Shown piece by piece: positions 1,467-58,117 of a stretch of DNA of 64,000 nucleotides. Positions within the stretch are counted from its first letter, which is position 1; every line of letters starts with the position of its first letter. The stretch covers positions 868,001-932,000 of the forward strand of contig NC_011674.1 of NCBI RefSeq assembly GCF_000150955.2, read 5' to 3'. This DNA comes from Phaeodactylum tricornutum CCAP 1055/1. Its lineage: Eukaryota > Bacillariophyta > Bacillariophyceae > Surirellales > Neidiaceae. The translations under genes were made by a program, and so were the position numbers. The notes under the pieces are model-generated. The model ran no database searches. It was not told where the DNA came from and saw only the letters and a program-made list of their open reading frames with translations.

Positions 1467-3126
1467 CTAGAGCTCACCCGCGGTGCGGCCCGTCAAATCA
1501 CCAATATCCTTGTGCGTTTCGTCCCACAAGCAATGAAAAGTGCCATCACGATCGACACGATTGTAAGTGTGTCCGCCAAAGAAATCGCGCTGCGCTTGAA
1601 TCAGGTTGGCCGGCAAGCGATCACGACGGTACTGGTCAAAGTAGGAAAGAGCAGCGGACAAGGCCGGGGTAGCGATACCGCTAGCGACGCCCAAAGAAAC
1701 CACGCGGCGCCAAGCCATCTGCCTTGCGTTGATTTCTTCAGCAAACGTTTCGTCCACCAACAAATTCTGCAAGTCCTTGTTCTTTTCAAAGGCGGCCGTG
1801 ATCTTGCTCAACAAGCTCGCGCGAATGATGCAGCCTCCACGCCACATTTTGGCACAGAGGGAGAGGTCGACGTCCCACTCGTTCTTGTCGGACGCGGCCT
1901 GGATGATTCCCATTCCCTGCGCATACGAAGTTACCTTGGCGCAGTACAACGCTTGCTGCAGATCCGACAAGATTTGATCCTTGTCGACTTGCGGCATTTC
2001 GTTGGATGGTCCCTGGAGGACTTTGCTGGCAGCGACACGTTCTTCCTTGCGGCCGGAAATGTAGCGACTATCGAGGGAAGCTGCAATGAGAGGGGCTGCA
2101 ACACTCTGTTCGGCAGCTTCTTGTACCGTCCAACGGCCAGTACCTTTCATTCCTGTCTTGTCAAGAATCTTGTCCACCACGTATCCGTCGTCGGTCAAAT
2201 CGTCCTTGCGAGCCAAAATCTTGGCCGTGATTTCAATGAGGTACGACTCGAGATCACCAGAGTTCCAGTCTTCAAAGAGTGTGGCCATTTCATCGTTGCC
2301 CATACCGACAATATTCTGCAACAGGATAGGTGAGAACAAGCTCCAAAGGTTTAGGTGCACAGGCTCCGCTCCGTTGAATAGCCTACCTTTAGAATATCGT
2401 AGACCTCTCCAATCAACTGCATGTCGCCGTATTCGATACCGTTGTGCACCATTTTGACGTAATTGCCCGCTCCGATTGGTCCGCAATAACCCGTGCAGGG
2501 TTCTTCCGGATCCCCAGCCTTGGCGGCACACTTCATGATGATGGGTTCAATCAAGTCGTACGCCTTTCGGGGACCGCCAGGCATGAGAGAAGGTCCGTTG
2601 CGGGCTCCTTCTTCGCCACCAGAAATTCCCATGCCGATGAACATGATACCCTTCTTTTCCAATTCTTCGTGACGACGAATCTGATTCGGGAACCATTCGT
2701 TGCCTCCGTCAATAATGACATCCCCTTCTTCCATGAATTCGCTGATCGCTTCGATGGTCAAATCGACAGGTTTTCCGGCTTGGACGAGAATGACGACTTT
2801 CCGAGGCTTGCTGAGTTTGGAAATAAATTCTTCGGGAGATTTGGTACCGATCAAGGGCAAATCGCCTTCGTCCTTGGCGCGTTGGACCGTCGTATCGACT
2901 TTGGAGGGCGAGCGGTTGCAAACGGCAACGGTGAACCCGTGCGACGCCTACAGAGAAAACGACACAGCAAGGCAAAATCCGTGAGACATGGTTTGGTCGG
3001 TCGCAGTACGGAGTCCACCAGTGCGTCGGTGATTGATTCAACTCGAATGCTCCCTACACGTACCATATTGAGCGCAAAATTCTGTCCCATGACAGCAAGA
3101 CCGTAAAGACCAATATCGCAGCTCAT
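1467..3126 (-). CDS. GND: 6-phosphogluconate dehydrogenase, decarboxylating
   Basis: Oxidative pentose phosphate pathway enzyme that converts 6-phosphogluconate to ribulose 5-phosphate with NADPH. Three exons: 3126-3064, 2947-2387 and 2315-1467, with introns of 116 and 71 bp that have GT/AG ends and keep the frame. The joined protein is 490 residues, the usual family size. It begins with the dinucleotide fold GLYGLAVMGQNFALNM, then shows IIDGGNEWFPN, the substrate loop GISGGEEGARNGPSLMPGG and the KMVHNGIEYGDMQ active-site helix. The exon 2/3 junction restores DILK-NIVGMGNDE. An upstream in-frame ATG at 3213 would add a strongly hydrophobic N terminus (MFLTILLFAAFCTTT), so a secreted or organelle isoform is possible. 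I chose the ATG at 3126 because it lies just before the conserved fold. It converges with the lumenal protein gene. Confidence 0.93.
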
Positions 3127-4171
3127 CCTGTTTATCTCGTTGGTGGAAAGTGTTTGAATAGATTCTAAAGTTGTCGTGCAGAAAGCGGCAAACAGTAGGA
3201 TTGTGAGGAACATGAGTATGCTACACGGTGTACTGTATTGTCGGCTAAGGTACGTCGCCAAAGCCGATCCGGGACGACATCCGCCAACGTAGTCAGAGAG
3301 CGTGGAAGATGAAAGTCATTCTTGGAAGATCCTGTGGTTCGGGTCCTTTGCGTAAATTCCAAATCGCAAAGAATCAAACCAACATTCTCGTCTCTAGAAC
3401 CAACCATCAACCCAGTCAGTATCATCCTGTACTGTTCCGGTGTGTGGAGACATGGTACGCACCTTTTGCGATTGCTTCGCGATTGCAACAGTTCTCGTGA
3501 ACAGCAGTTGCGATGGCCGTTTTATGACGCCATTAGAATGCGGTTGACTGTGAATTCGGTCTGGGAGAACCCTCCAGGATCTCGTGCCCCGTTTCATCGT
3601 CTGCTTGGGAAGTCCTGCACAGAGAAGACGTTACGGTTCTGGAAAGATCCCCATTTATAGAGCGGGAGATTTTCTATTTGGGTGGTGAACCGCAAACAGG
3701 TTCAGCTATTCGGGTGGAACACTAAGTAATGGCTTAATTGAAAACGTGCAAATTCGAATATAATTAGATGTGGTCCAAGGAAGAGGTAATATGGTTAAAT
3801 GACAACTCATCCCGACGACGAGAGAGCGACGTCCTATGCGACTCCATGCAATCTGGCAAGTCATTTTGGCAAGCCAGGTTCTATTCTCCGGGTTTTGCGT
3901 ACCGATGAATTAATGCGATCCGGGTTTCCTGTTGCTCGATTCAAACTTTCGTTGACAGTGAGTAGCCGTCAGTAGAGTCAGTACGGGAACTTCTGTAGAA
4001 AGACACGCGTCAATGACATCCCGGCGACAGCACACGTTCACGCCCAAATTTCGACGATGGCGAACCACGTCCCGTAGGCGCAGACCCCAAAACTACACCG
4101 ATCGGAACAACGGTCGACACCCCGCCTCTGGGTCATTCGAATTCGTCATTCTGTTGATCAAAAGCTCAAAG
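3127..4171. other. intergenic region between divergent genes
   Basis: Promoter space of the 6PGDH gene (minus strand) and of the MIS12-like gene (plus strand). An exact TTGACTGTGAA motif lies at 3544-3554. Short overlapping reading frames between 3309 and 3660 look like chance. The upstream in-frame extension of 6PGDH (3127-3261) also lies here. Confidence 0.5.
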
Positions 4172-5083
4172 ATGTCGCTACCAGATGCACAGGTAGAAGT
4201 ATCCACGGCGTCGAGTGCGGACACTGCGTTGTTTGGATCACTCAATGCGACAATCGCCGATCACTTGAGTAGTCAGGTCGACGAGACTCTCGCCATTGGT
4301 GTGGCTACCTTACCTCTCTTGCAGAGTCAACCGTCGCGAGCCGAAACTCTCCACGCAATGCTACGAAGATGCTACTGGAAGAACGTTGACGTCTTCGAAG
4401 TCTACTGCGATCGTAACGTGTTTACCACGAACATGTTTCCTATCGAACGCCGCACCGCGATTGCTGAGCTCTACACGCAAGCCCAGCGGGAGAACACCAG
4501 TGCTGATACGATTCTGCAGGAAGCCTTCGCCCAGACTGTAGAAGAAGCGACAACTTCGCCAACCGATGCGCCCCGAAAGGTCGAGTCCGCCGTGCCAGTT
4601 CCTTCCGAACAAGATGTACAGGATCTCCACAAAGAACTAGCGTCTCTACGCCTCCGGCTCCGCGACGCCCACCGTCGCAAGCTCCAAGTGACGCAGTCGA
4701 TCAAAGAGCTCGACGTCGCCAATCACTTGGCGAATCTTGCCAACGAAACATTACAGGTCTGCCCCAACCCCGACGGCTCCCCTGCACTCGGTCTGGATCA
4801 GGTACACCAGACGGTTACGGCCACGCTCGTGGGCACGGAAAGGTTGACCACTTTACAAGGAAAAGGCCTTGATGTCATCCAAGAGATGGAACGCAAAACA
4901 CGGGAACGTGGACCGGAAGAGGAGCCCGAGGACACGGTGGACCTCATGCTCGCGTCCGGTACCATCAATCGTCACCATAAGAAGCCCAAGACACTGACCG
5001 AACGGTACGCACAGGAACAGGCGGAAATGGGGACGCATCGGACCGCGGTACGGGCCATTTTGGGAGATAGCAATAATCATTGA
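4172..5083 (+). CDS. probable MIS12-like kinetochore protein
   Basis: A 303-residue protein from the ATG at 4172; an upstream ATG at 4013 would add 53 basic, low-complexity residues. The N-terminal third has LFGSLNATIADHLSSQVDE, then CYWKNVDVFEVYCDRNVF followed by hydrophobic and Pro-containing residues. This resembles the Mis12/Mtw1 signature in which a helix with FE-Y--RN-F precedes a coiled coil. Residues about 150-200 (LHKELASLRLRLRDAHRRK) are predicted coiled coil, and the C terminus is charged. In other eukaryotes MIS12 joins the inner centromere to the outer kinetochore. The match rests on a short motif plus the overall layout, so another coiled-coil protein cannot be excluded. Confidence 0.5.
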   Translation: MSLPDAQVEVSTASSADTALFGSLNATIADHLSSQVDETLAIGVATLPLLQSQPSRAETLHAMLRRCYWKNVDVFEVYCDRNVFTTNMFPIERRTAIAELYTQAQRENTSADTILQEAFAQTVEEATTSPTDAPRKVESAVPVPSEQDVQDLHKELASLRLRLRDAHRRKLQVTQSIKELDVANHLANLANETLQVCPNPDGSPALGLDQVHQTVTATLVGTERLTTLQGKGLDVIQEMERKTRERGPEEEPEDTVDLMLASGTINRHHKKPKTLTERYAQEQAEMGTHRTAVRAILGDSNNH

Positions 5084-5445
5084 TGAGATTGATAGTCATG
5101 ACGAGGGAATAGTAGTAAAAGGTGTTTTACATTAAAGTTTTGTTTTGATTATGTGTTGTGCGGGTGTGTGTATGGATAGAGATGGCTGTCTGAAATCGAC
5201 AAAACCTCTTCTCTGGACTTTTCGCTTTCAATGCAATGGATGCAGCTGCCATTGGACTGCAGCCCTATTTGTGCTACCCTTTGATCCTTGTTATTCTCTC
5301 TACAGTTTTATCCACTATATGTATGGATTGTTGAGTATATATAAATATTAGGTGCATGCGGGTCCCTGTGGTATGGCGTTGGTCTGTGTGTGTATGTGTC
5401 ACAATCATTGCTGAATCGCACGCCGGTGTGTCCTAGAAGAGACTT
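5084..5445. other. intergenic gap between convergent genes
   Basis: Presumed 3' UTRs of the MIS12-like and TIC20-like genes. It is rich in T and TG runs (TGTGTGTGTATG near 5386). No gene or clear repeat is seen. Confidence 0.5.
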
Positions 5446-6618
5446 CTAATCCTTCTTGTCCTTTTTGCGTTCGTCATCTTCGTCGGTTTCGGCATTCGGT
5501 GAATCAGTACGTTTCGGAGTAAAGCGACCTTGGACGTCGAACATGTCCACCGTCGGTATACGGGCATTGACGGCTTCGCTAATGATGGGGATCTTGTCGG
5601 GCGTGCCGCCCAAGAGCGAACTCACGGTACAGTACCCCAGTGTGGCGAGCAGCGTAACGAACATGACGTCGGAACCAATCTCCGTCACACCCTGTGGCAA
5701 GAACTTTCCACCCCCCACTAAACTGAAAACGGCAGCGATCAATCCGGGGAAGAACAAGGCAATGTCCAAAAAGATGGCCTGCTGCATATTGTAACGGATC
5801 AAACGGTTGATGGTGGGGTTCCCGGACAAGAAGGAAAGCGCAAAAAAAGCAATAAAACCTCCAAACGGGATACTCCGGTACAAGGCGTACGAAAGCGCAA
5901 TAATTCCGGAGATCGGATTGTCGGGGTTTTCCAGAACGAGAAAGCGGGCAAACTGGAGACCATCCAGGAGTGGAAATAGGTACGGTAATACCGAGATTAG
6001 CTTGTCTTGCGTGGTGGGTGCGCGGTCGTTAATCATATCGAGACGGGCCTGCAGAAACTTGGAAGCCTCTTCTTCTTGTTGTGCCGCTCGCTTTGCTTGC
6101 AGAGCCTGCGCCTTTTCGTCCCGCGCCAAGGCGTCAAGTTTATTGCGAAACTGTTCGACAGTCACGAATTCTTCCAATTTAAGCGTCCCATCGCCCGTCT
6201 TGTCGAAATCATGCATAAGCATTTTGACCCGGGTCTCTGAAAGTTCCATTTTGAGGTTCTTTTCGAGTCCAGCTTTTAGTTCTGCCAGCGAGATCTCGCC
6301 GTCTTGGTTGGTATCGAACTTGCGAAAGGCTCGTTCAGCGGCGTCGGCAATTTGCTGTTTTTGCGAGGCTTCCAAATTGGCTGCCTCCGAACGCAGTTTG
6401 GCCGCCATGGACTTGAGTCGTTCGATCTCTTCGTCGTCCGTATCGGCGGATTTAAGAACGGGAGCGGATCGGAGTGGGACTTTCGGAACTATTCCGAATT
6501 TGGGCGACGTTACAATCGCTCGGAACGTTGCGGTAGCTGACCGAGACGGGGCGAACGCGTCGGTCGTTGTCGTCAGTACGGCCAGCAATAAGGCAGTCTG
6601 CCTCGTGGATAAATTCAT
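5446..6618 (-). CDS. plastid EF-hand/TIC20-like membrane protein
   Basis: A 390-residue single-exon protein. Residues 1-21 are a signal peptide and the junction TTDAFAPS (F22 at +1) is a classic diatom ASAF motif, followed by a transit-like stretch. Two well-formed EF-hand loops sit at 102-113 (DTNQDGEISLAE) and 139-150 (DKTGDGTLKLEE), with all calcium-ligand positions filled. A charged helix follows. From about 205 to 335 it is a four-helix membrane domain of the TIC20 family (LPYLFPLLDGLQFARFL, LYRSIPFGGFIAFFALSFL, IRYNMQQAIFLDIALFFPG). TIC20 is the inner-envelope protein-import channel component. The C terminus is acidic and Lys-rich (DEDDERKKDKKD). The EF-hand pair fused to TIC20 is unusual and suggests that calcium acts on import; that role is inference. 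Confidence 0.85.
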   Translation of the reverse strand: MNLSTRQTALLLAVLTTTTDAFAPSRSATATFRAIVTSPKFGIVPKVPLRSAPVLKSADTDDEEIERLKSMAAKLRSEAANLEASQKQQIADAAERAFRKFDTNQDGEISLAELKAGLEKNLKMELSETRVKMLMHDFDKTGDGTLKLEEFVTVEQFRNKLDALARDEKAQALQAKRAAQQEEEASKFLQARLDMINDRAPTTQDKLISVLPYLFPLLDGLQFARFLVLENPDNPISGIIALSYALYRSIPFGGFIAFFALSFLSGNPTINRLIRYNMQQAIFLDIALFFPGLIAAVFSLVGGGKFLPQGVTEIGSDVMFVTLLATLGYCTVSSLLGGTPDKIPIISEAVNARIPTVDMFDVQGRFTPKRTDSPNAETDEDDERKKDKKD

Positions 6619-7313
6619 TGCTAATAAGGGTCAGGAATGAAAGTGAACTGTTGGGTTGGCTGGAAAAGAATCACAAGCGCAGCAAATGCAAATTTATGGG
6701 GTGGTATTCACTGTCAGAGCGGATACAATAATCCAGTCGGGTGGTGTTTTACAGCTAATACGTAAATCCGAATGGATCAGCCGAAAGTGGGGGAGGTATC
6801 GGAATGACGGACACGGGCAGAGCAGCAGCGTGCGGATCTTGGGCATGTTTTCTCGCACGCGAACGCAAAACCAGCACATATATGTTTGTGGCGTGGGTCG
6901 CTCTTGGAATCACATCGAAGATCTTCCTCAACAACGTCATACAGCGTGACTCAGTGCCGATTTCCATGACTGACACAGTCAACGTCCCGACCTCACCAAA
7001 GAGCTCAACAGCCTAGTTTACATTGCAATTACACGAATCAAGCTTCGCGGACTGTGAGACCGCAATATCAGGAATACGCAACGGTACGTGTCACCGTGTT
7101 CATTCCAATACATATCCACCATTTCATGTGACCAGTCGGGAACGGCTCTTAAAGGAAGACGTTTGTACCGTGTCTCTAGAGAGAAGCTTTTTGGACTATT
7201 TAGGTCTAGAGTTGCGCTACTCGATCTCTAGTAAAGGCGTAAGCAAAGTTACGTATCGCAAATCATTCACAGTCAATAGGTGTGGTTTACAATGGCTGAT
7301 GACCCAGTGGCGT
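6619..7313. other. intergenic region between two minus-strand genes
   Basis: Promoter side of the TIC20-like gene and 3' side of the RRM gene. An exact TTCACAGTCAA (reverse of TTGACTGTGAA) sits at 7266-7276, inside a longer block (7257-7277) that recurs with one change at 49481-49501. No gene is supported. Confidence 0.5.
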
Positions 7314-11438: not shown

Positions 11439-11807
11439 TTCCGTCCGTTAGACGAATCGCAGAATGAGAAAATGTCCCAAAGAAAAAACCCAGCCGTTTC
11501 CCGCGACAAAACAAATTGACAGTGATGCCCAACATTGCATTCGAAACACAACACCATCCTTACTTTTCGTCGGAGTTCTTTGCAGTGCCAACAAGATACC
11601 GTCCACACAACTTGCCTCTGTTCAAGCCTCCCGTTTACTCTAGCAGTCCTAGAGAGGTCCAGTTCGTTCTTTCTTACTGGATAGCGTTATTCCTCGGAGC
11701 GACGGCACAAAACGAGTACCCAGAGGATCGCACTCCGTCCGTCCAAAGTGACGCTATCGTAACCCTTACGAGAGCGTAAGGTAGACGGCGTTTCGTACCA
11801 AAAGTCC
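11439..11807. other. promoter region of the first PhyH/Tudor gene
   Basis: No gene is supported. The only plus-strand reading frame (11516-11779) has no recognisable features. This stretch should hold the promoter and 5' UTR of the gene that starts at 11808. Confidence 0.4.
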
Positions 11808-14504
11808 GTGGCTTTTATCGAAATGTCAACTGCCGAGATGAATATTCGCTTCGCCAGTCCGGGTGCGACACGCTTCGATTCCGTGAATGCCAGTACGGCG
11901 AACTCTTCGAACTTAAAGGTCCGAGTTTCGCCCACAAAGTCGGTCGCATCCACTACTGCACCCGTGTGGACTTTGCTGCGTACTATTCTGTTGGACCTTC
12001 CGTTGGCGCTTCTCTTTGCGTCCTTTTTGTTCGTCTACGCCTGCCAATACATTCACAGCACCTACTATATTCCCTTGTACGATCGGGCCCAACGAACGAA
12101 CGAAGACTTGTACGAAGAGTTCACCTACTACCACCGACACTGCACCAGTTACGATTTATCAACGCACCACTTGCCTGATTTGCTTGTCAACGCATCGGCC
12201 TCGTTGACGTCGGTTGCGGCGGCGAAAGAAGTCGTTGAAGATGCCGTGGATACCATGTTAAGGCACGGCGCCATTGTTCTGCCCGGCTTGTTGACCGCCG
12301 ACGCGGTCCGTGACTTGCGGTCCTACGTGGAACGGCGCAACGCGGCAATTTCCGATACCGAAGTCTATCCCGTGTCGCAAGGAGACCGGCGTCTCAGTTA
12401 CGGGATTGACGCAACGGAAGATCCCGCCGTCGTCCAGGCTATTCGACAAATTGCCAATCACACACCGTTACGGGCCATTATGCAAGCTTTGCTGGGTGAT
12501 CCCGACCCGGCGTCGGCCGAAATTACCGCGATTACGGCCTACCCGGGTGCCGAAGATCAATCGTGGCACGCGGATACGAAAGAAGACGGAAACGCGCTCA
12601 AGTTCGCCCGTACCTATAGTCACTCGTATAGTCTCTTCCTTCCTCTACAGGAAACTACCGCCGCCATGGGGCCGACCGATGTGTGTCCGGGGACACACTA
12701 TTGCGCCAACGATGTGACCGAAATGTGTGACACCAACAAAATGGGCCTGCACGAAGCAAACGAAGATCTGGTATTTCACGCTGGCGATGGAGCCTTGTTA
12801 AACCAACACGTTTGGCATCGCGGATCTGCACACACCGATCCAAACGCAATGGAACGAATCGTTTTTATCGTGAGTTTCCTGGCCCGTCCAAAGTTTGGCA
12901 AAGATCCGCGTCAGCTATCTCGCGGAACGTACTTTCACCAGAAGTGGAACATGTGGGGACACACCTGGAAAGACTTGATGGATCCGATGGCTTCCATGGG
13001 GAAGCCTTTCTCCATTCTCCGTTGTTTGAGTATCTACAAGCCTTGGTCTCGTAATTGGGGGTACGACCTTGTGACATCTGCATTTATGCGGTTTTCCAAT
13101 GAACAATTGGAAAACGAAGACTTGGAATTCCGACTTCTGCCCAGACTGGAGGAAGTCGGTCTGCCATCTTGGCTATGGGGGACCGTCTCCATGGAGGAGG
13201 GGCAACGTGTTGCCTGGCAAACGTTCATTTCCGAGACTTTGAATAACACCTTTACCTTTCTAGCGGAAATCAATGTTAAAGCACACGCTGTGTATGGGGC
13301 TTTGATTGCTTTTTTTGCTTGTATCGCCAGCATCCGTCGCCAATCGGGAGTCTCAGTATTCCGACGGAACTTTCTCCGCGTGTTGTTGACGCACGGCGTT
13401 CTGCTTGGTGTGACGTTCATGATTCTAAGGGGCATTCGCACTTCGGAATGGGGCTCTAGTGTGTTGTTTGGACGGACGCTGCAGCGCCCGTTCCCATCCA
13501 TTGCAATCACCAGGGAAGTCGAAGATCGAATGCCAATACAGGGGCCGACAACCGTCCCGCATCGATCAGATGTACTGATCGGTTCCCGTTATGATGCGGC
13601 CTTTCTTGGAAGTTACGACCGCTGGCTGGACTACCATGCCGGAAACAGCGACTACTTGCAGATTGTGGAAAATCTGGGACCTTTGTACAGGTCGTATCAG
13701 CGCCTGGGTCCCTTCTTTACCACTCAAGTTGAGAACAATCTCCTTTCCCTTGTTGAGGAAAGTGAGGGTCGCTTTTTACAACAGAACTTTCGAACAGGTG
13801 ACTGGCAAATAATGGACGAAGAAGAGGCGAGGCTGGTTGTCCATGACGACCTGATTGCTTGGTCAAAACAGTTGCTATGGGTATTACGTCGTTCCATCGA
13901 CCACATGGTTGCAGATTACCGCTTTGGATTATTTCGACAGACCTCGTTGGCTCGCTATTCTCAGGTTCATTTGCTGCATTTGAGGCGCACGGTACTGGGT
14001 AATCGTCTTGTCTTGTCCAAGTCCAGTCGAAACGGCCGACCTCCTTCTTTACAATCTCAGCTGTCTCTTTCTCCACTTCGCATCGAAGCACTATCACACA
14101 TTACAATTCACAGACGATCGCTGCTACCTCCAGCAGTACCGCTACCTGAGATTCGAGAAGGAAGCCGTGTATGGTGCAACCTTCAAAACATGGAATGGGA
14201 TTGGTATCCCGGGGTCGTCGAGAATGCTGATGAGAATTACGAATTTTTCGACGTTGCGTTGGAGGACGGTTTCATTGTCGAGGATGTTGCCAAGATTGAC
14301 ATTCGCCAGTATCCTCATATAAAGGAAGGGATACGTGTACATGGATGCTTTGGAGATGGCTTGGAAGACTGCTTCCCGGGGACGGTATTTCACGTCATGC
14401 CCAATCGAGATGTGGGAATTGAGTACGACGATGGCGATGTGGAGGACCGTGTGCCACCGAGTCGCTATTTTGTACCGCCGTTTGCGTACGAGTCTCCGTC
14501 ATGA
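11808..14504 (+). CDS. membrane PhyH-like Fe(II)/2OG dioxygenase with tandem Tudor-like repeats
   Basis: An 898-residue single-exon protein. A transmembrane anchor lies near 55-80 (RTILLDLPLALLFASFLFVYA). A phytanoyl-CoA dioxygenase-like double-stranded beta-helix follows, with the iron ligands H254-x-D256 (SWHADTKEDG) and a distal His in HVWHRG (H337, or H334), a CPGTH segment and a downstream Arg (ERIVFIVSF). A Trp-rich stretch (KWNMWGHTWKDL) and two hydrophobic helices (about 500-560) come next. The C terminus has two Tudor/Agenet-like units (EGSRVWCNLQNMEWDWYPG... and EGIRVHGCF...VGIEYDDGDVED). PhyH enzymes hydroxylate lipids or small molecules, whereas Tudor folds bind methylated peptides or act as scaffolds. 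The substrate is unknown. Two relatives lie at 29960-32719 and 62555-63954. ATGs at 11823 and 11838 are alternative starts. Confidence 0.75.
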   Translation: MAFIEMSTAEMNIRFASPGATRFDSVNASTANSSNLKVRVSPTKSVASTTAPVWTLLRTILLDLPLALLFASFLFVYACQYIHSTYYIPLYDRAQRTNEDLYEEFTYYHRHCTSYDLSTHHLPDLLVNASASLTSVAAAKEVVEDAVDTMLRHGAIVLPGLLTADAVRDLRSYVERRNAAISDTEVYPVSQGDRRLSYGIDATEDPAVVQAIRQIANHTPLRAIMQALLGDPDPASAEITAITAYPGAEDQSWHADTKEDGNALKFARTYSHSYSLFLPLQETTAAMGPTDVCPGTHYCANDVTEMCDTNKMGLHEANEDLVFHAGDGALLNQHVWHRGSAHTDPNAMERIVFIVSFLARPKFGKDPRQLSRGTYFHQKWNMWGHTWKDLMDPMASMGKPFSILRCLSIYKPWSRNWGYDLVTSAFMRFSNEQLENEDLEFRLLPRLEEVGLPSWLWGTVSMEEGQRVAWQTFISETLNNTFTFLAEINVKAHAVYGALIAFFACIASIRRQSGVSVFRRNFLRVLLTHGVLLGVTFMILRGIRTSEWGSSVLFGRTLQRPFPSIAITREVEDRMPIQGPTTVPHRSDVLIGSRYDAAFLGSYDRWLDYHAGNSDYLQIVENLGPLYRSYQRLGPFFTTQVENNLLSLVEESEGRFLQQNFRTGDWQIMDEEEARLVVHDDLIAWSKQLLWVLRRSIDHMVADYRFGLFRQTSLARYSQVHLLHLRRTVLGNRLVLSKSSRNGRPPSLQSQLSLSPLRIEALSHITIHRRSLLPPAVPLPEIREGSRVWCNLQNMEWDWYPGVVENADENYEFFDVALEDGFIVEDVAKIDIRQYPHIKEGIRVHGCFGDGLEDCFPGTVFHVMPNRDVGIEYDDGDVEDRVPPSRYFVPPFAYESPS

Positions 14505-16799: not shown

Positions 16800-18076
16800 C
16801 TACATAAACTCTAGACCAGTGACAGCCGCGTCGAGCAGTGATTCGCCGACACCCGTCTGCCCGTTCCGACTCGTCGACGCGAGAGGCATCGCGCCCGACG
16901 ATCGGTCGTTTCGGGACACTGGTACCGGAGCAGTGCCGGTCACTGCTGCTTGCTTCAGGAGACGCTTTTGTTCGGCTGCGCTGACCCGCTCCGATTCCGA
17001 TAAAGACCATTGACCAAGCTTTTTACGCTGCGCTTGCGCAACAGCCTGCTCCAGTTCCGCGCGCTTGCCCTGTAGGAATATAAGGAGCAACACAGATAAG
17101 GGTCCGATAGCTCTTTTGCAGTGTTTCATGCCAATCCACAGCCAAGTCGTCTGCCGAACAAAAAGGATCGCAATAGACGTACATTGTACTGGGCACCACC
17201 GCCAGTATAAAGCTCCGCCAACCCAGCCTTGGCCAATTCCAGCGACAAATCTTTCGGCCCGAATCCGGGAATCCAAGAAAGGAATCGTGGTGGTACCGTT
17301 TCCACCGACGCTACCGCCCGGCTGTACTGGTCCTTCCGCAAAAAGGTTACTTTGACCATTTTGTTGTAAACGAGTTTGGAGGTAAAAGATTTGGCTTCTT
17401 CGGAAAAAGGTTGCGAAACTTGTCGTTTATTCTTGCCAATTTCGGGAGTATCGATGCCGTACACGCGAATGCTGAGTGTGTCTTTGGCGATGCCCCGCTG
17501 TTGGAGCGGTTGTGTGGATTGGCGGCGGAGTCCGTAGCCCGGTACATGCCGGACTCGGATAGTATCTCCGTCAATTATACGTTCCACGAAACCATATATG
17601 TAGCGATTGTCGGAAAAGTAGTCGCTGGGAACGTCATCTGCGGTGGAGAACTGAGGAATAAGATTCAGAGATGGCAGATTGAGAATCGCAGTATCATCGG
17701 TGCCGGAGGCAGCCCAAGCGGTGGAATCAACGGGCACGAGACCGGACGAGGCCGCGGTAACGACCAAGGTGGTTGCAGTCACTTTCTGCAAAAACTTCCG
17801 ACGGGAAGGGGTAGCAGGTTGTTGCTCGATTGAGACCAAGCTGGTACAACTTTCATGCTGGGGATCGGAGGGATTTGAGGAAAAACGACACGTATCGATC
17901 TTGCGGTAAGTAGCAGCAGTATGTCTGGTTGAAGAGAAGCTCTTCGAGCGGATAACGAAGCCCTCCGCTACTCTAGAGAAAGCGCATAGGCTTACCAGTA
18001 GAAGAATCTTACAACCCCGGAGGTGAGAGAAAATGTAGAAAGCAGAATCGTATGTAGCGTCATTGGGAAATATCAA
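16800..18076 (-). CDS. plastid, probably lumenal, staphylococcal-nuclease-like protein
   Basis: Two exons, 18076-17183 and 17069-16800, with a 113-bp GT/AG intron; 387 residues. An N-terminal signal peptide (GCKILLLVSLCAFSRVAEG) is followed by F40 as a plastid-type +1 residue. A second, Tat-like signal follows: SRRKFLQKV at 91-99, a hydrophobic run and AWA near 120. The SNase domain (about 155-335) keeps the fold and catalytic residues: IIDGDTIRVRHV, SIRVYGIDTPEIG (Arg and Glu) and RKDQYSRAVASV (Arg). The C-terminal tail after the intron is Lys/Gln-rich. SNase enzymes are calcium-dependent nucleases that cut DNA and RNA. The double presequence points to the plastid and possibly the thylakoid lumen. 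The function there is open. Confidence 0.82.
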
Positions 18077-18157
18077 CCGTAGATGTTGATATAATCAATA
18101 TGAAGCGTCGAAGAAAGGAAGTTCACCAGAGGCACGACAACATATGGACCGCTTTGC

Positions 18158-29959: not shown

Positions 29960-32719
29960 CTATTCGGGAATTACGTGTTTTGGTGCAACGTTGGTGGCGA
30001 AGTCGCCGTCGTCAAACTCAATGTTGTAGGACCCATCCACATTCACATGCAATATTGTGCCCGTATTGTAGCCTTCATCAACCAGAAATTCAACGCGAGA
30101 TCCTACCTCTATTTCCCCCAACAACGGGACGCGGCGTAGATCGGTAGCTGACGCGTTACTACGTATGCTGCCGTCTTCAAACTTGAGATCGTACACATCA
30201 CCCGACTGAATTTTGACTACACGAGCACGATGAAATATGTCTTCTTCGTCTCTCCACTCTACGTCGTCGTTCAGGGCGTACGGAACAAACGGTCGTACGC
30301 AGTTACGACAGAGTCCAACATCTTCGTCGCCATCGTCGTATTCAACGTCCCATACATCTTTGTCAGCACTCGTGGACACTATGCGTCCACGATACCATTC
30401 TAGGAGAACAATGAAAATGCTGGCTGTGAGTTTTACTTACCAGTCTGGACGTGTGCTTCCTTCTCACAATTACGACGTACCTGGAAAATTACCATGATAG
30501 CGACCTTCCACGACATCCCCCTCTTGCATCCACGCTCCAGCGTACGGCTCAGAAGTAGATGGCCTGGGAGGAAGAACTTGCCGAACTGATCGAAGAGATT
30601 TTTGAGTGAGTAATGGAATCGAATGTCCGCGAAAGAATGGTCGTACGAGGAGAGAGCCGTTTGAGGACGATAGACCGGCTGACGAATTCTTGCTAGTCTC
30701 GTTCCATCCTAGCAGCTTTCGTTCGAGGCGGTCAAGCAGAACAGGATTGTGACGTAGGTACATAGATGTGTGCCGCCAAAAGCCATATATATTTTCCGCC
30801 TTCAAGTAGTCCAGCTGTCGGGATACATGTTCAACACCGGAATTTGATGCTCTTGTCAATTTCTTATGACATGCTTTTTCGGCAGTTTCTTGGGCAACCT
30901 CGGCCCAAGCTCCATCTACGTTCTTTGCTAGAATACGGCTTCCGTCTTGCTTGTTCCATAGCAGAACATCCGCACGCAAACTCCGTTTAAGCGAAAATGG
31001 TAGAGCGGTATATCCTTTGGAGTGCTGCAAGATCATGGTGTTGAACCGTCGATTTCCAGGATGCGCGAAGTCCAGTATTCGATCATACGACCCCAAGTGT
31101 TCCGACTGAAATTGGTCAAGGATCAAAACATCTTCCAAGAGAAGAAGCGTCCCTGGAAGAGGAAGATTTTGATCTGGACTGGGCAACCGATAGAGACGAC
31201 TGCCACGAATGCTTTTGGCCCAATCCGTAACAGCAAGTCGCCGTCGCGCAAACTCCTCGATCGACAATATTACAGCGTGTAGCAATAGGACCCGCAGCAT
31301 GCTTCGACCAATAGCCTTCACTCGAAAATGTCTACGTCCCGCGGCGAACAAAAATCCGTTCCAGATAACTACAAATGAACCGTACCCGAATACAACGGCA
31401 AGATAGAATTTCTGAGTGGTGTGACTGCATAAGCGTAGCGTATCTTCCATGAATTCCACCCAGGCATAACTGGTTTCCTCGTCAGTTGACGCGTGCCCCT
31501 GCAGCCAGTCCGGCAGAAACGTGAGTCCGCCCTTGGATAGCTGCCCGTCCAGACTCTCACGATGAAAACCCTCTTCATCGTTGGCCACGCGTCCCGAAGC
31601 TTGGGATAAATAGTCCCATCCCCACTGTGCATCTCGCGGTTTGTACAAACCCAGCGCACGGAGAGCTCGCCAGGGATGTTTCATGCGAGTGTCCGGGTCC
31701 TGGAAATCCCTCAACGTGTGTCCCCATTGTGACCAGTGTAAGGAGTACGAACCGCCGGTCGAAATCATTCGCGTTTCCAGCTTGGACGGTGTGAACTGGG
31801 GCCGTGGTGCAAAGGTGAGAATAAACAAAACGCGGCTGGGCCCGTGCGGGTCGACATGGGGGGCTCCACGGTGGGTCGTTTGTTGATTGACCAGTGCTCC
31901 CCATCCCAATGGCCAGTTATCGGCCGCCCCGGATACGGGAAATCCCGAGTACTCACAAAAGTGGATCGGTCCGGCAGCGCACATGTGTGTACCCGGGCAA
32001 ATATCGGTGGCACCAATCGCCTTGGTAGTGTTTTGCAGTGGGATAAAGAGACTGTAGGACGGGACAAAACTACGACTGTATTTGGCGGCGCTTCCTTCGG
32101 GTACCACGTCCTGGTGCCAGCGTTGTGCGGTAGCGCCATAGGCACTGGTAATCCCGGTAAACTCAATAATGGCGGGATTCTTACCAAGAATGGCTTCGAG
32201 ACCTTCAACCAGCTCGGGCTTATTGAGAACTTCCTTCAGAGCCTTGGATACACTGGGATGTTGGTCGACTCTTACACCAAAGCTCCAGCGATTGGTGTTT
32301 TCAATCACGTCAATCATGTCTTCGTTTTTAAGATTCTGCGCGAGAATGAAATCGCGCACTTCGTTGGCCGTTTCCGCCGACAAAAGGTTAGGATAGACTG
32401 AAACACCGTGCGTCAGCATGTGTTCCATTTTGTCTCGCTTGGACATGCTGCTGTAGTCTATGACGAGAGGTTCCGTATCGTGCGCGGACTGATCGGATTC
32501 GTCACACCGACGATGAAAATAGGTCACTTCTTGTTCGGCCCGTTCCGGGGTCCAGCGCTGGAGTTCGAGCTGCGGTAGCATGTAGTTGGTCTTTACATAT
32601 TCTAACCAAGATGTCGTAGAATATAGAATCAAGGCTAATAGTAGGGGAACATCCAGCAAGAGGGTGCGAAGCACAACGCCCGTATAGATCAATACGGGAG
32701 AGGTTGTCGTAGGAATCAT
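29960..32719 (-). CDS. membrane PhyH-like dioxygenase with three Tudor-like repeats
   Basis: Two exons, 32719-30481 and 30399-29960, with an 81-bp GT/AG intron that splits the first Tudor unit (RYHGNFP-EWYRGRIVS); 892 residues. An N-terminal anchor (GVVLRTLLLDVPLLLALILY) precedes a PhyH-like fold with RWHQD (the HxD pair), FIPLQ, CPGTH, NQQTTHRG (distal His) and SRVLFIL (Arg). Membrane helices follow near two thirds of the length. Three C-terminal Tudor/Agenet-like units follow: EGDVVEGRYHGNFPEWYRG...VEYDDGDED, DDVEWRDEEDIF...LKFEDGS and GSRVEFLVDEGY...IEFDDGD. It matches the protein at 11808-14504 from end to end but has one more Tudor unit. An in-frame ATG at 32926 would add 69 residues; I prefer 32719, next to the anchor. 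The substrate is unknown. Confidence 0.75.
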
Positions 32720-33394
32720 TGGAGCAGTACGCCGGCTTCCCACAGTGTAAGAATCTTTCTTTGTCTCATTGGCTTTCCAAATGGCATGACTGCCTAGCGC
32801 ATCCTGTTTCTGGGCGTTCTGACAATATGGATGCGTTTCTGGGACGGTATGAGCAACATGCGCACGTACGCATAGATCAGCTGCGTTTCCCACTGGACGA
32901 GGACTCGTCCCGAGGCTCATCTGCAACAGGGACTATCTCCGGTGTTACAGTATCGCTTGGGCAATAGGCATCATTTGGTGGAGCAAATGACTGTTTTAGA
33001 AAATAGTCAGGGATTTGTTCTTTGCCGCAAGGCAAAAGAATCTCACAGACGAGAGCGAATCCGTTCCAACGGCCGAGGTTCACGACAATCCGAACGGTAG
33101 ATGGTTTTGTTTGAACTTTCAACCTTTGCGGGTTCGGATTTCAAGGAAGACCCAATCGCCGGAAATCCCTATAGAAAAGCACAACCACCACATACACAAC
33201 TTCACAATTTTTACGAATTGATGTGAAAGGCGGCGTTCGAAATGTATGGCACTCACAGTGAAGTTTCTGTCATTCTTGTCAGTCCCCTTTGGATATTAGA
33301 TCAAACACAGTGTTGGGAAAAGCTACACAGTCGCTGATTTAGTCTACCTAGCACTACATGGCATTTCATTTTGTTCAATATCAATTGTCAGCTT
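32720..33394. other. promoter region of the second PhyH/Tudor gene
   Basis: Between two minus-strand genes. It includes the optional N-terminal extension to 32926. Nothing else is recognised. Confidence 0.4.
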
Positions 33395-52976: not shown

Positions 52977-54003
52977 GGTCGAGTACGTACAAGATCGTGA
53001 TTGATCTGTGTGTGTATTTTCTCGGGAAGTCGTAGGAACAAAAAATTATGGCCGTGTCGCGCGGTTCTCGGGCGGGAAAAAAGCGAGAGGCGGAAATTAG
53101 GTATCGATCGCTGGTGGAGAAAAAGAGACGCTGGTCTGTTTGCGAATTTGCCTCGCGGAATCCCACAGAATACTGGCGGAATCGGGGTTGCGGAAGACAT
53201 TGTTTTTCTGGAACGTCATTGAAGTTTACATTGGAGACAAGAATGATCCAATCCAATGTATTGAATCGGATCTACTTAGCAATCCCAGAAGTGAAAACCT
53301 CAACGACCATAAGTCATTTTGATAGCACTGTGTCTAGTTTCGGGAAGGCTTATTGGTCGGAGGAGTCAATTCTTGTTCGTGGATTGGCATCGTGTGTTCC
53401 CGGATTCTGACAACTGGCAACTGTCAACCGTGTCGCTCCGACATATTTGGATCGTTTTTCCAATCGGGAATCCAGTCTCATCGGGTGGATCGTGCACGGG
53501 TGGTCGACTCCGTTTCTTGTCAGGATGTCTCGTTGGGACTGCGGAGATTGTCAATTGCGACCTCGAACTTGTCGAATGGTCTGTCTGCACAACCGGAACC
53601 CAAACCGGAAAGCCCGAAGACATTAGCCAACATGCAACACTCATCTCGCAGCTCACAGTAAATTCAAGAAAATCTGAAAGTGAAGCCTAACATCACAGCG
53701 TACCAAGGATTGGCGATCGCTTTATCAAAGAAAGCAAATCGTTGTTTGTTTGAAGCATAACAGAAGCGCAATCTGGTCCTCTGAAAAAGCTGTGGTACAG
53801 TGTTGCGAAGAGCAAGTTTGTTCGGCTATACTGTTAGTGAGACCTACTGTTGTTGACGCTTGGATTGATCGGCTTGGCCATTTAGATCGTCCACGCTCGG
53901 ATTCTTCCAGGCATTGCCGATCTGCACAAACGACCGATCGTGGGTTAGACTGTGTGGTGATCGGGGAAAGCGAAATTGGAGTCATTGGCACTCTTCTGTA
54001 TGA
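52977..54003. other. intergenic region between divergent genes
   Basis: Upstream of the acidic protein gene and of the SbcD-SbcC fusion. Several overlapping plus-strand frames (53048-53410 and 53319-53690) have no recognisable features and unlikely codon use, so I do not call them. No repeats are seen. Confidence 0.4.
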
Positions 54004-57000
54004 ATGTTCTGGCGATTCTTCGTGAACGGTCGTCGGTGGCGCTGTGGCGTCGGCACTTTCAGTTTGATCGGAATGTTAGGGTTCTGGAACCCGGCGCGCG
54101 GATGGCTGGTACAGCGAGCAGTACGAAACGTGAGAGTCCCTGGACGTCTCAATGACGAAATCTTACGGCAGAAAATGGGCTCTACCCGAAGTTTGACGCG
54201 ACGGAGTATGGTAGCACAGTGGAACGTTGGTGATACCGTCTTGGTCCCTTCCACGAGAAATAAGAACGACCAGTCGCTCGCACAAGGTGTAATCTGCGAT
54301 CACCGGGGTTCGGGATGGTATTCCGTACAACTTGGTAGTGGAGCAGACAAGCGCATCGTCAAGTTCCGTGGTACGCAGCTTGAACGGTATCTTTCCGACG
54401 AAGCAAAGTCTCAAGCTTCCATGGAATCGTCGGCGCCGTTCGGAAATTTCGACAACGTTCCGTTCAATATTTCGTCTCTTCCTGTCATGGACGTTACCAA
54501 TCCGGTTACCAAGACCAAGTCAATTTTGAAAAGTGGAGCACCGGGACCTGCTCCACCGCCACCGACGATCATTGATCTAGACGCTGCTGTTCGGTCTATG
54601 GACGATCCTTTCGATCCTGTGGAAAACGTTGCACAAAGGAACTACTTGCAACACGTAGCGCACCATTCCAGCTTTGAACAATGGGTGGTCTTCACAGATC
54701 TCCATTGCTCAGCATCGACAATGGATGCCACAATAGAGACCTTGCGAACTGTGCACCAGCACGCTGTGAAGAGAAAAGCAGGCATTCTCTTTCTAGGAGA
54801 CTTTTGGCATCATCGACGAACGTTGCGCATCGACTGCCTCAACACTGTTCTACACGAATTATCGACCTGGACCGTTCCCATGGTCATGATCCCAGGCAAT
54901 CACGACCAAGTCACTCTGGGTGGCCTAGTGCATGGACTTACACCATTGGAGCACGCCTACCGCGTTACGGCCAACAAGGGCTCGTTTTCCACAACCTTTC
55001 CCGGGCCGCTCGTCTTTTCACACGCCACCGTATTCGCGAACGCCCTGTTTATACCACACATTCGTGACAATGCTATCATGGAATCTGTTTTGCAGTCCAC
55101 GCACGCTCAGAACGCAGAAGCGCTCTTTGTACATGCCGACATAACTGGTGCTTACATGAACGATCTAATTGTCTCTCTGGGTGGTGTTCCACCACGCATG
55201 TTCCCTGGTAACAAGCCAATCTATTCCGGACATTTTCACAAGCCTCACACCGTCAAGCAAGGCAATAAGGCGATCGAATACTTAGGATCTCCGTACGAGG
55301 TGTCGCTGGCAGAGGCTCAGCAACCGAAAGCTCTCGCCGTGCTGGATGCATCCAATGGTTGGAAATGCATCGAAAAAATTCCTTTGAGCATCGGCCGAAA
55401 GCACTTTCGGCCTCTAAACGAGGACGAATTCTTGGCACTTCGTCCAAAGCAATTTGGAACACGGGACCGGGATACAGATGTGTTGGCTTCTATTAGCGTG
55501 GACTCCGGTGATCGTGTGCTTTTCTCCGTGGACAAGGATAAACTAGAGAAGTTGCGGCGGTCTTCAGAGGTTGGTGAAACCAATCCAATCGACACTCATG
55601 TGAGCATTTTGCGTCAAAAAGGCATCACCGTGGAACTTCGTGAAACACGGGAGTTGCCTGTTGGCCCAATGGAATCTGCATCGCCCGACATGAAGGGTGA
55701 CTACATCAACCTTTCGCTCGAATCCACTTGGACCTCATTTATAGAAGGGGAGGTGCGACGAGGGGCCATGACTGAAGAAAAAGCTGATTTTTTATCGAAG
55801 CCTGGTTTAGATATTTTGGCAGATCTCGATTCCGTGGTAATTGGTAGTATGTCAGGAAATAAAACTGATGTTGAGCTTTATTCGCTGACCGTAGAAGGGT
55901 TTGGCCCATTTCGACAGCCAGTTACCTATCCGCTACTAGAACGAGGGCTAGTTCTGTTGAGAGGGTCGAATAAAGATGGGGGATCTGACAGGTAATTGAT
56001 TGGGATGTATTCTTTTTGCTGAATTGATATGCCGTTTCTGAATTGAAGAGTCAAATTGATATTGCAGCAACGGAAGTGGAAAGTCGTCACTGGCAATGTC
56101 GGCACTTTGGGCTTTTACTGGGAGCATTGATCCCCGCCCATTGCAAGACTCAAAAGTTTCGGACGTCGTGCACGATTCGTGCAAGGTAATTGGACTTCCA
56201 CGCTGTGACGCGTTATGTCTTTCACAAGTGCACTTACTCTTTCGCTCTTTCTTGTAGGCAGCTCGCGTTACGGTGAAGGGAGCTTTCAATGGTGTTGAAT
56301 TTTCCGTCACTCGAACAAAAACGGCAACAAAGGGGAACATTGTATTTACCCTAGGAGGCGAAGACCTGACGACGCAGTCTGCCAAGGAAACGCAAGAGCT
56401 TATCGACGAGACCTTTGGCGTGAATTCACAGATTCTCGCTAGAACAATATTTAATGGGCAGCATGCATTGAATGATTTATTAGAGGCTACCGACTCGAAA
56501 CTAAAAGACGAGCTTGCCACTGTCGTGCCGTTGAGTGGGTGGCAAGATGCGGTAACGCTTGTGCGGAAAATGGGACGCGAAGCTGGTAAAAGGGCATCCG
56601 AAATTGAAGGAATGTTAGCTCTTCGCGAAAAGGATTTGGAAAGGCTCGACCGGCGACTAGAAGACGCTACTTCTGTAGTTTATGAAACGGAAGCCAGCCT
56701 CCGAAGTACAGAACAATCCGTCACAGACGAGTTGGAAGGGTTGTATTTTGCTGGAACCCATTGCATGGAACTAGATGACTGGGATGCTCGGCTTCTTGAT
56801 GCATCTGAAAAGGTAAAGGCTCTTGAAAGGAGCTTGCGGTCCAAGCAGACTGAAAGAGACGAAGTAATGAAATCAGCAGCGGCGGAGGCGACTCGCCGGT
56901 CGAGTTTTCTCGATTCTGCTGCTGATAGCTTCAGGAGGGTCGAAGCCCGATATGGTCGGTTGGCGATGGATTTTGAGACGGCAACCAAAAAGGTCCAAGA

Positions 57001-58117
57001 ACTCGAGAAACTTTGGAGTTTGGATCTGTCCTCAGGAGAGCTTGATACAGCATACGCTCCGGTCCTTTGCCCAACATGTGGTCAAAGCGTTTCAAGTGAC
57101 GACTCCGGACATGATCTCAGAAGCCTTAAGGGGGCTATGGAGGACGATATTAGCGTTGCGCTGCTCCGGCTCCACGAAGCGCAGACCATGGTGCAAGACG
57201 TTGGCGGTGAACTCGCCGCTGCGAAAGCTCAACACGGCGAAGCCCTCTCTTTGGTCAAAGACTTGAATACTCAAAAAGAAAAAGAATCGCAGGTATGGTC
57301 AGAAACCATCTGTAAACAAGAAAGAGCACTTGCTGACGCTCGAGAAGCCCAGTCGGTTGCATCATTTGAGTATACATTGGCAGTCAAGGCTTTCCAGCAA
57401 AAAGCTAGAAGAGATGAACTTCAGTCTCAAATCGATAGACAACACCAAGCCTTGAGCAACGTGCGAGCACACGCAGAAGCTGTAGAAGCGGAGACTATGG
57501 AGTACAGGAACTTGGTGAAGGAGTTACAAGCAAGCCTAGATACAGAAGAGAAACAAGTGGCTCTGATGAGCGATCTGTCAGATGCATTCGGACAAAGGGG
57601 AGTGCAGGCTTTTGTGCTTCAATCGGAGATCGAAATCTTACAAACGTTGACCCAATCCTTTCTCGATGACTTCAGCGACGGGACCCAAAAGCTTAGCCTT
57701 TCGCTTGACGCAGGTGACCGGATTTCTCGGCGGGCTTACGTCCGCTCCCCCGATGGCGCCTATCATGAACGCCCGTTGGCCTCGCTCTCTGGTGGACAAT
57801 GGAGACGATGTTCACTTGCACTCAATCTTGGCTATGCTGACCTTGTTGCTAGACGAGGCAGATTCCGATCGTCTCTTTATATAATGGACGAACCCTTGAC
57901 TCACTTGGATCGCTCAGGTAGAGCGGATGTAGGAAGGGTATTTCGAAAGCTCCTGCGTCGATCTACTACTAGCGGAGAAGGAGGGCTCGCCCCGTCGACG
58001 ATAATTGTCATTTTGCAAGATCTTGCCGCTGAGGAACTTGGAGAGGCCTTCGATTGCATCGATGAAGTTGTAAAATTCCAAGGGACAAGCCAAGTTTTTG
58101 TAGACGAAGAGCTTTAG
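54004..58117 (+). CDS. single-chain SbcD-SbcC (Mre11-Rad50-like) nuclease-ATPase fusion
   Basis: Three exons, 54004-55991, 56068-56185 and 56258-58117, with introns of 76 and 72 bp; 1321 residues. An N-terminal basic, hydrophobic stretch may target an organelle. A small SH3-like part follows (WNVGDTVLVPS). The metallophosphoesterase domain has FTDLHC (D232, H234), LGDFWHH, PGNHDQ, FVHAD and GHFHKPH (409-415). The ATPase follows: Walker A SNGSGKSS at 663-670, split by intron 1, coiled coils, a zinc-hook CPTC (C973, C976), the signature LSGGQ at 1212-1216 and Walker B LYIMDEPLTHLD. In bacteria and eukaryotes the nuclease (SbcD/Mre11) and the ATPase (SbcC/Rad50) are separate proteins; here they are one polypeptide. 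The coiled coils are short. Its partner, if any, is unknown. Confidence 0.88.

Follow-up and report, generated by a model that had tools for sequence, protein, structure and literature searches.

SbcD and SbcC, like Mre11 and Rad50, are normally two proteins. Why, then, does a diatom carry both in one reading frame, where did such a gene come from, and in which compartment would its product act? The locus that raises these questions lies in a 64,000-nucleotide stretch of the Phaeodactylum tricornutum CCAP 1055/1 genome (NC_011674.1, positions 868,001 to 932,000, or C6:868001-932000 in the 27,450,724-bp, 88-contig assembly that was searched), hereafter the window. The reading we prefer, with moderate confidence, is that it is a nuclear gene for a single-chain, phage-type SbcD-SbcC (Mre11-Rad50), most likely imported into the plastid.

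The fusion itself has been on record in this species since 2011, because Yoshida, Claverie and Ogata list a P. tricornutum Mre11/Rad50 fusion, B7FXD6_PHATR (PMC3175470), and the original prediction, which was made from the letters of the window, missed this earlier record. The window gene shares its domain order with their fusions and is almost certainly B7FXD6 because the genome shows a single such locus: a Marchantia fused protein gave five matches to the genome, all at C6:922664-925967. In the consulted parts of that paper, the P. tricornutum protein belongs to a ‘moss-diatom-prasinophyte group’, the distribution of the fusion is called sporadic, unidentified intermediates are mentioned, a viral origin is proposed and the word ‘chloroplast’ is absent. 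Relative to that account, our results suggest three new elements, namely a wide spread over plastid lineages, leaders of the plastid type, and a fit of both halves to phage profiles together with a close relative in a virus that keeps the halves as two genes. As far as the open-access literature could be consulted, only PMC3175470 treats these fusions; no report of a plastid location or of a viral relative like the one described below was found there, nor of a broad plastid-lineage spread (PMC4329603, PMC4647503 and PMC12906663 included).

Is this one gene or two? Splicing of the three exons (Table 1) yields one protein of 1321 residues in which a leader and a small SH3-like barrel precede an SbcD/Mre11 nuclease with capping and helix-loop-helix elements, followed by an SbcC/Rad50 ATPase with a CPTC hook. 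An in-frame TGA lies directly 5' of exon 1 (54001-54003), and retention of intron 1 or intron 2 leads to an in-frame stop at codon 664 or 726. Both introns are borne out by P0001, an intronless public protein of 1253 residues encoded on a Logan contig (4772 bp, 79 member sequences), which matches residues 69-1321 with four substitutions and spans both splice junctions. We infer that this contig is complementary DNA, because a genomic contig would contain the introns. Other donors for intron 1 would also keep the frame, but one of them uses GC and those with GT would remove the conserved loop; the GT at 55992 gives the conserved GGSDSNGSGK. Six diatom-like open reading frames (ORFs; P0059, P0061 and P0063-P0066) depart from the conserved sequence just past GGSD or GGTD, the position of intron 1, which fits a conserved intron within the Walker A loop. 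That two adjacent genes were misjoined, or that the assembly is in error, is extremely improbable, since nothing speaks for it beyond the requirement for two introns, whereas P0001 runs through both junctions and fused chains occur in diatoms, brown algae, greens and mosses, among them P0025 and P0070 from MMETSP transcriptomes. Two genes and mis-splicing are thus contradicted by P0001 and the fused homologues: no stop separates the halves, homologues are not always separate, and the locus is one fused SbcD-SbcC gene.

Three protein searches (67, 384 and 229 matches, the listings covering 67, 120 and 120 of them, with about 8000 candidates scored in each) gave 214 distinct proteins among the matches listed, and 105 of these, mostly long ones, were aligned to follow the motifs. 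The metal ligands, as generally assigned among the five nuclease motifs, are nearly invariant: motif-I D in 101 of 101 rows with a letter and motif-I H in 102 of 103, motif-II D and motif-III N and H in 104 of 104, and the H of motif IV and both H of motif V in all 105. Equally constant are the hook cysteines (104/104 and 103/104) and the Walker A K and Walker B D/E (105/105), and such conservation is far beyond chance. The gene therefore carries all five metallophosphoesterase motifs with every metal ligand (101-105 informative rows per column), together with Walker A, signature, Walker B and a CxxC hook at the coiled-coil apex, so that the alignment, P0001 and the fused homologues agree with the claim of a nuclease and an ATPase with complete motifs in a single spliced frame. 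The predicted folds place a capping domain and a helix-loop-helix between nuclease and ATPase, and structural alignments cover the latter (6s6v_A to residue 610 at 6.5 Å, 3tho_B to 615 at 7.1 Å). Taken together, these features would make the protein an Mn-dependent nuclease with an ATP-driven clamp of the Mre11/Rad50 type. The second nuclease motif reads GDxxH in 99 of 104 rows; canonical Mre11 has GDLFH there, its His being tied to exonuclease activity, and SbcD has Asp.

Which branch of the superfamily does it resemble? Both halves fit phage SbcCD profiles better than cellular ones. In PHROGs, which has no curated cut-off, the nuclease half matches phrog_100 (SbcD) at 72.7 bits and the ATPase half phrog_77 (SbcC) at 131.3 bits, both significantly, whereas the NCBIfam cellular models for SbcD, SbcC and Rad50 reach at most 31.2 and 59.9 bits, respectively, all far below their cut-offs, in a scan that covered exon 1 and exon 3 apart rather than the spliced protein, plus P0022 and P0119 as full-length relatives. 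The fold, metal ligands, Walker motifs and hook are shared with E. coli SbcCD and eukaryotic Mre11-Rad50, which differ in being two proteins with a longer coiled coil; the curated cellular cut-offs are not reached by the fused protein. The coiled coil of the fusion is about half the length of that in E. coli SbcC (466/446), in line with the short coiled coil proposed earlier. The unusual Walker A context, earlier suggested as a possible mark of a distinct lineage, does mark one: SNG.GK is kept in 105 of 105 rows, an extended loop precedes it in the rows inspected, and the same layout recurs in the viral contigs L090, L092, L093, L010 and L011.

The nearest non-eukaryotic relative found is L090, an IMG/VR viral contig (38% identical, E 5e-101), on which SbcD (2965-3993) and SbcC (3990-6071) are separate genes that share 4 bases. 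A RecA/UvsX gene lies before the pair and a RuvC-like gene after it; the viral contig L009 has the same RecA-SbcD-SbcC-RuvC order. Phage cassettes of this kind (phrog_100/phrog_77; L090, L009, L092) share the extended Walker A loop and give the best-scoring PHROGs for both halves, and the hook spacing of L090 nearly equals that of the fused protein. Unlike the algal fusion, L090, L009 and L092 keep two genes, with no leader and no SH3-like barrel seen. The hook is not general in phage SbcC, since a pattern search of the stretch from P-loop to signature in T4 gp46 and phage LP65 gave no CxxC. Three viral contigs hold SbcD and SbcC in one ORF: L183 (1684-5928, its frame continuing upstream), L184 (2980-5904) and L179 (2806-4929); the first two contigs measure 104-105 kb and their ORFs are single chains with the domain order of the algal fusion, and L179 is an 8-kb contig whose end cuts the ORF. 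As a hint at the host of L090, its contig also encodes a protein rich in CDGLDNDCDGLVDEG repeats (L210, 7859-9832), a pattern known from Myxococcota and relatives.

An organism name or a recognised genome code (such as SM0000.., Chlat1, Mesvir1, Psemu1 and CCRYP) is attached to 60 of the 214 listed proteins, and the other 154 have neither. All 60 come from plastid-lineage organisms, diatoms ranking first, and part of them are gene models that span one half only. They comprise pennate and centric diatoms, Ectocarpus, Scytosiphon, Tribonema, Chromera, chlorophytes, prasinophytes, streptophyte algae, liverworts, mosses and one lycophyte, and none of the 60 is from a seed plant, fern, animal, fungus, oomycete or prokaryote, which does not imply absence elsewhere. 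One match is from Nitzschia sp. Nitz4, a diatom that does not photosynthesise yet has a plastid genome. These matches suggest a family that is broad in plastid lineages rather than sporadic. The relatives sought in stramenopiles and algae were thus found in fused form, and the family extends beyond stramenopiles to greens and mosses.

Diatom plastid proteins carry a signal peptide followed by a transit peptide with F at its +1 position, the ASAFAP motif (accessible text of PMC4329603). A home-made test, distinct from SignalP and ASAFind, scored leaders for a hydrophobic core, a small residue followed by F, and a basic, low-acid stretch. Candidate start codons in the window gene are M1, M24, M58 and M69; when M1, M24 and M69 were tried, only M1 passed, with the leader MFWRFFVNGRRWRCGVGTFSLIGMLG|FWNPARGW. 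Two neighbours of plastid type from the window, used as positive controls, pass as well. Among ochrophyte and alveolate rows, 21 of 81 leaders pass against a shuffle mean of 2.3, rising to 27 of 81 against 3.8 when F, W or Y is allowed; with another row filter, 22 of 72 leaders passed (500 shuffles: mean 2.6, maximum 7). Green leaders pass in 0 of 49 cases (shuffle means 1.1 for F and 1.8 for F/W/Y); their composition is basic and rich in alanine (means: 0.151 basic, 0.156 Ala). An N-terminal organelle signal with organellar use had been proposed; the leaders fit such use, and that of the window gene would point to the plastid if translation starts at M1.

A bacterial-type RecA encoded elsewhere in the genome (C1:1654764-1655534, minus strand; E 2.2e-123) has a leader similar to that of the fusion, ending SSCHG|FGLLGG, and is the probable recombination partner. 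The genome also has a separate Mre11 on C12 (PF04152, E 3.8e-37) and a gene on C7 that is read as canonical Rad50 from an AAA_23 match, a CPCC hook and characteristic sequence marks; the Pfam hook model has no match anywhere in this genome, and Mre11_DNA_bind (PF04152), present in the separate Mre11, is not listed for the spliced fused protein at E 1. Diatoms are listed with separate Rad50 and Mre11 in the consulted part of a meiotic gene survey (PMC4647503), and canonical genes beside the fusion are likewise noted in the accessible text of PMC3175470.

Import into the plastid has to be weighed against two other destinations. The same enzyme might be mitochondrial or dually targeted, which we regard as unlikely: several leaders, such as those of P0007, P0012 and P0050, are basic without a signal-like core by eye, and the basic, Ala-rich green leaders do not separate mitochondrion from plastid, whereas the excess of ochrophyte and alveolate leaders with a signal-like core and F over the shuffle mean, and the restriction of all 60 labelled matches to plastid lineages when mitochondria are far more widespread, point the other way. 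Slightly less likely again is a nuclear paralogue that assists or replaces canonical Mre11-Rad50; translation from M69 would give a leaderless protein for such a role, but the genome already has its separate Mre11 and presumed Rad50, and the same leader excess argues for an organelle. Several facts count against the plastid-imported, phage-type enzyme that we favor. The leader test was devised after the N-termini had been seen, so that its result is suggestive; 60 of the 81 ochrophyte and alveolate rows fail it; many rows were sorted by hand into ochrophyte and green groups, with starts that are gene-caller guesses; the leaders of P0007, P0012 and P0050 look mitochondrial by eye; P0001 was called from M69, the start that removes the leader; and red algae, haptophytes and cryptophytes are not seen by name among the matches listed. 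To these must be added the behavior of the trees, in which 14 of 36 eukaryotic rows have no organism label and were assumed eukaryotic, and the cellular outgroups are E. coli and this diatom only. The nuclease tree sets L090 within the green group (22-row fork, support 95) and leaves the very long branch of the diatom's canonical Mre11 in one unresolved fork together with the family, and the ATPase tree groups L090 with P0178 and P0194 (no organism label), so that the half-trees disagree.

Tree rows were hand-picked: the protein of the fused gene, 38 of the 214 listed proteins, 28 of the 80 viral loci in which both halves are present, and L035, L089, T4, E. coli and the diatom Mre11 and Rad50. 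The concatenated tree (55 rows, 681 columns) omitted the long branches E. coli, diatom Mre11 and Rad50, T4, L035, L191 and L166, and also those with one half not cuttable by motif rules, namely Parachlorella, Mesostigma, Bryopsis, L186, L179, L110, L108, L177, L170, L147 and L089. In this tree the 36 eukaryotic rows group with L090 at 100/100 support and by themselves at 83/88, greens form a group at 98/94, stramenopiles with Chromera at 100/100, and L009 falls well outside the eukaryotic group. The published grouping with mosses and prasinophytes is recovered (Ceratodon, Sphagnum, Ostreococcus and Bathycoccus). The L183/L184 fusion is probably separate from the algal one, unless L090 split a fused gene, because a clade of L183/L184 with the eukaryotic rows excluding L090 (38 rows) is rejected by the approximately unbiased test (p-AU 2e-8), and the same clade including L090 is not (p-AU 0.269). 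Could the virus of L090 instead have acquired both halves from a green alga and separated them, the eukaryotic family then not being of phage descent? We consider this improbable, on a par with a mitochondrial destination: the nuclease tree nests L090 among greens and such nesting is not rejected (p-AU 0.467), but the gene order of L090 is common to L009, far from the eukaryotic group, and relatives of its SbcC are frequent in phages (990 of 50,697 records), though they occur in plasmid records too (750 of 72,556). The RecA-SbcD-SbcC-RuvC order thus favors an original phage cassette, and transfer from phage to alga is the direction that we tentatively infer. Two other sources gained no support. 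For a cyanobacterial or bacterial host origin, a GTDB scan with two short peptide patterns, which excludes no cellular donor, gave one relative, L089, filed under a Brevinema genome bin; its contig has SbcD and SbcC as separate ORFs with RecA-like and other phage-like genes by eye, and is probably a phage. The SbcD model TIGR00619 had no match at cut-off in the diatom genome, the single weak match being another phosphoesterase on C61. For a giant-virus origin, an IMG/VR A3 scan gave four loci (L090-L093), all two-gene, in a comparison that excludes Mimivirus R555; L090 and L092 were read as ORF tables, and in L091 and L093 the ORFs with a nuclease or a P-loop were inspected.

How might a plastid-imported, phage-type SbcD-SbcC work? 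By analogy with solved complexes, contacts between the nuclease domains and between the ATPase heads would hold two chains together, and zinc could link the apices at CPTC to bridge DNA. ATP may clamp the heads onto a DNA end, hydrolysis opening the nuclease site, which would trim or cut blocked or hairpin ends of broken plastid DNA and hand them to RecA-dependent recombination; nuclease activity, bridging and the RecA partnership are all expected from sequence likeness. The fusion would fix a 1:1 ratio and require import of one precursor instead of two. We tentatively propose, as a possibility short of an even chance, that a phage SbcD-SbcC cassette entered an early plastid-bearing eukaryote, became fused and was kept in green and red-derived plastid lineages, up to bryophytes and lycophytes, as a plastid Mre11-Rad50. 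If so, an organelle would have co-opted a recombination module from a phage, and the fusion would take its place among the small number of enzymes of phage origin that operate organelle genomes. The wider picture would be a fused phage-type break-processing enzyme that algae and early land plants have retained alongside canonical Mre11 and Rad50, and the gene offers a concrete, testable candidate for plastid DNA break processing in algae and bryophytes.

Table 1 Features of the fused SbcD-SbcC gene (window coordinates).
Feature	Position	Strand	Details
Exon 1	54004..55991	+	Residues 1-662 and two bases of codon 663
Leader	54004..54207	+	Residues 1-68; from M1 a signal-like core, then F (..GMLG|FWNPARGW..); disordered in model
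Small SH3-like barrel	54217..54393	+	Residues 72-130; predicted local distance difference test (pLDDT) ~90 in model
Metallophosphoesterase motifs I-V	54697..55239	+	Residues 232-412: DLH 232-234, GDFWH 265-269, GNHD 298-301, H377, GHFH 409-412
Capping-domain-like beta-alpha-beta unit	55513..55647	+	Residues 504-548; structure model; within SbcD/Mre11 structural alignment 223-550
Helix-loop-helix	55717..55842	+	Residues 572-613; model; equivalent of Mre11 Rad50-binding element
Intron 1	55992..56067	+	GT-AG, 76 bp, phase 2; interrupts Walker A loop
Exon 2	56068..56185	+	Rest of codon 663, then residues 664-702; contains Walker A GSGKS (residues 665-669) at 56072-56086
Intron 2	56186..56257	+	GT-AG, 72 bp, phase 0
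Exon 3	56258..58117	+	Residues 703-1321, then stop; encodes the coiled coil and the C-terminal lobe of the ATPase
Zinc-hook CPTC	57068..57079	+	Residues 973-976
ABC signature LSGGQ	57785..57799	+	Residues 1212-1216
Walker B LYIMDE	57875..57892	+	Residues 1242-1247

The SH3-like barrel follows by eye the pattern GDxV..G..e.rg.GWytV..K.R..qL in diatoms, the brown-alga-like row P0087 and rows P0096-P0098, P0103 and P0115, and was not noticed by eye in green or moss members. Ten barrel pieces gave no Pfam family above cut-off, the best being RsgA_N at 20.2 of 27 bits (P0022 piece). A Foldseek search gave a match to 6l7o chain S, presumably NdhS, that is too weak for naming (E 0.01, row 50).

Elsewhere in the window, a minus-strand gene at 5446-6630 joins a Tic20-like plastid import channel protein (PF16166, E 2.1e-13) to an N-terminal calcium-binding EF-hand pair (PF13499, E 9.3e-13), behind a clean plastid leader, TTTTDA|FAPSRS. 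A Staphylococcal-nuclease-like protein (17126-18094, minus strand; PF00565, E 4.7e-14) has a leader that is plastid-type by eye (..RVAEG|FVIRSK..). Finally, the genes at 11763-14504 (plus strand) and 30470-32932 (minus strand) are apparent paralogues, both just below the DUF6824 cut-off, with a PhyH match in the first only.

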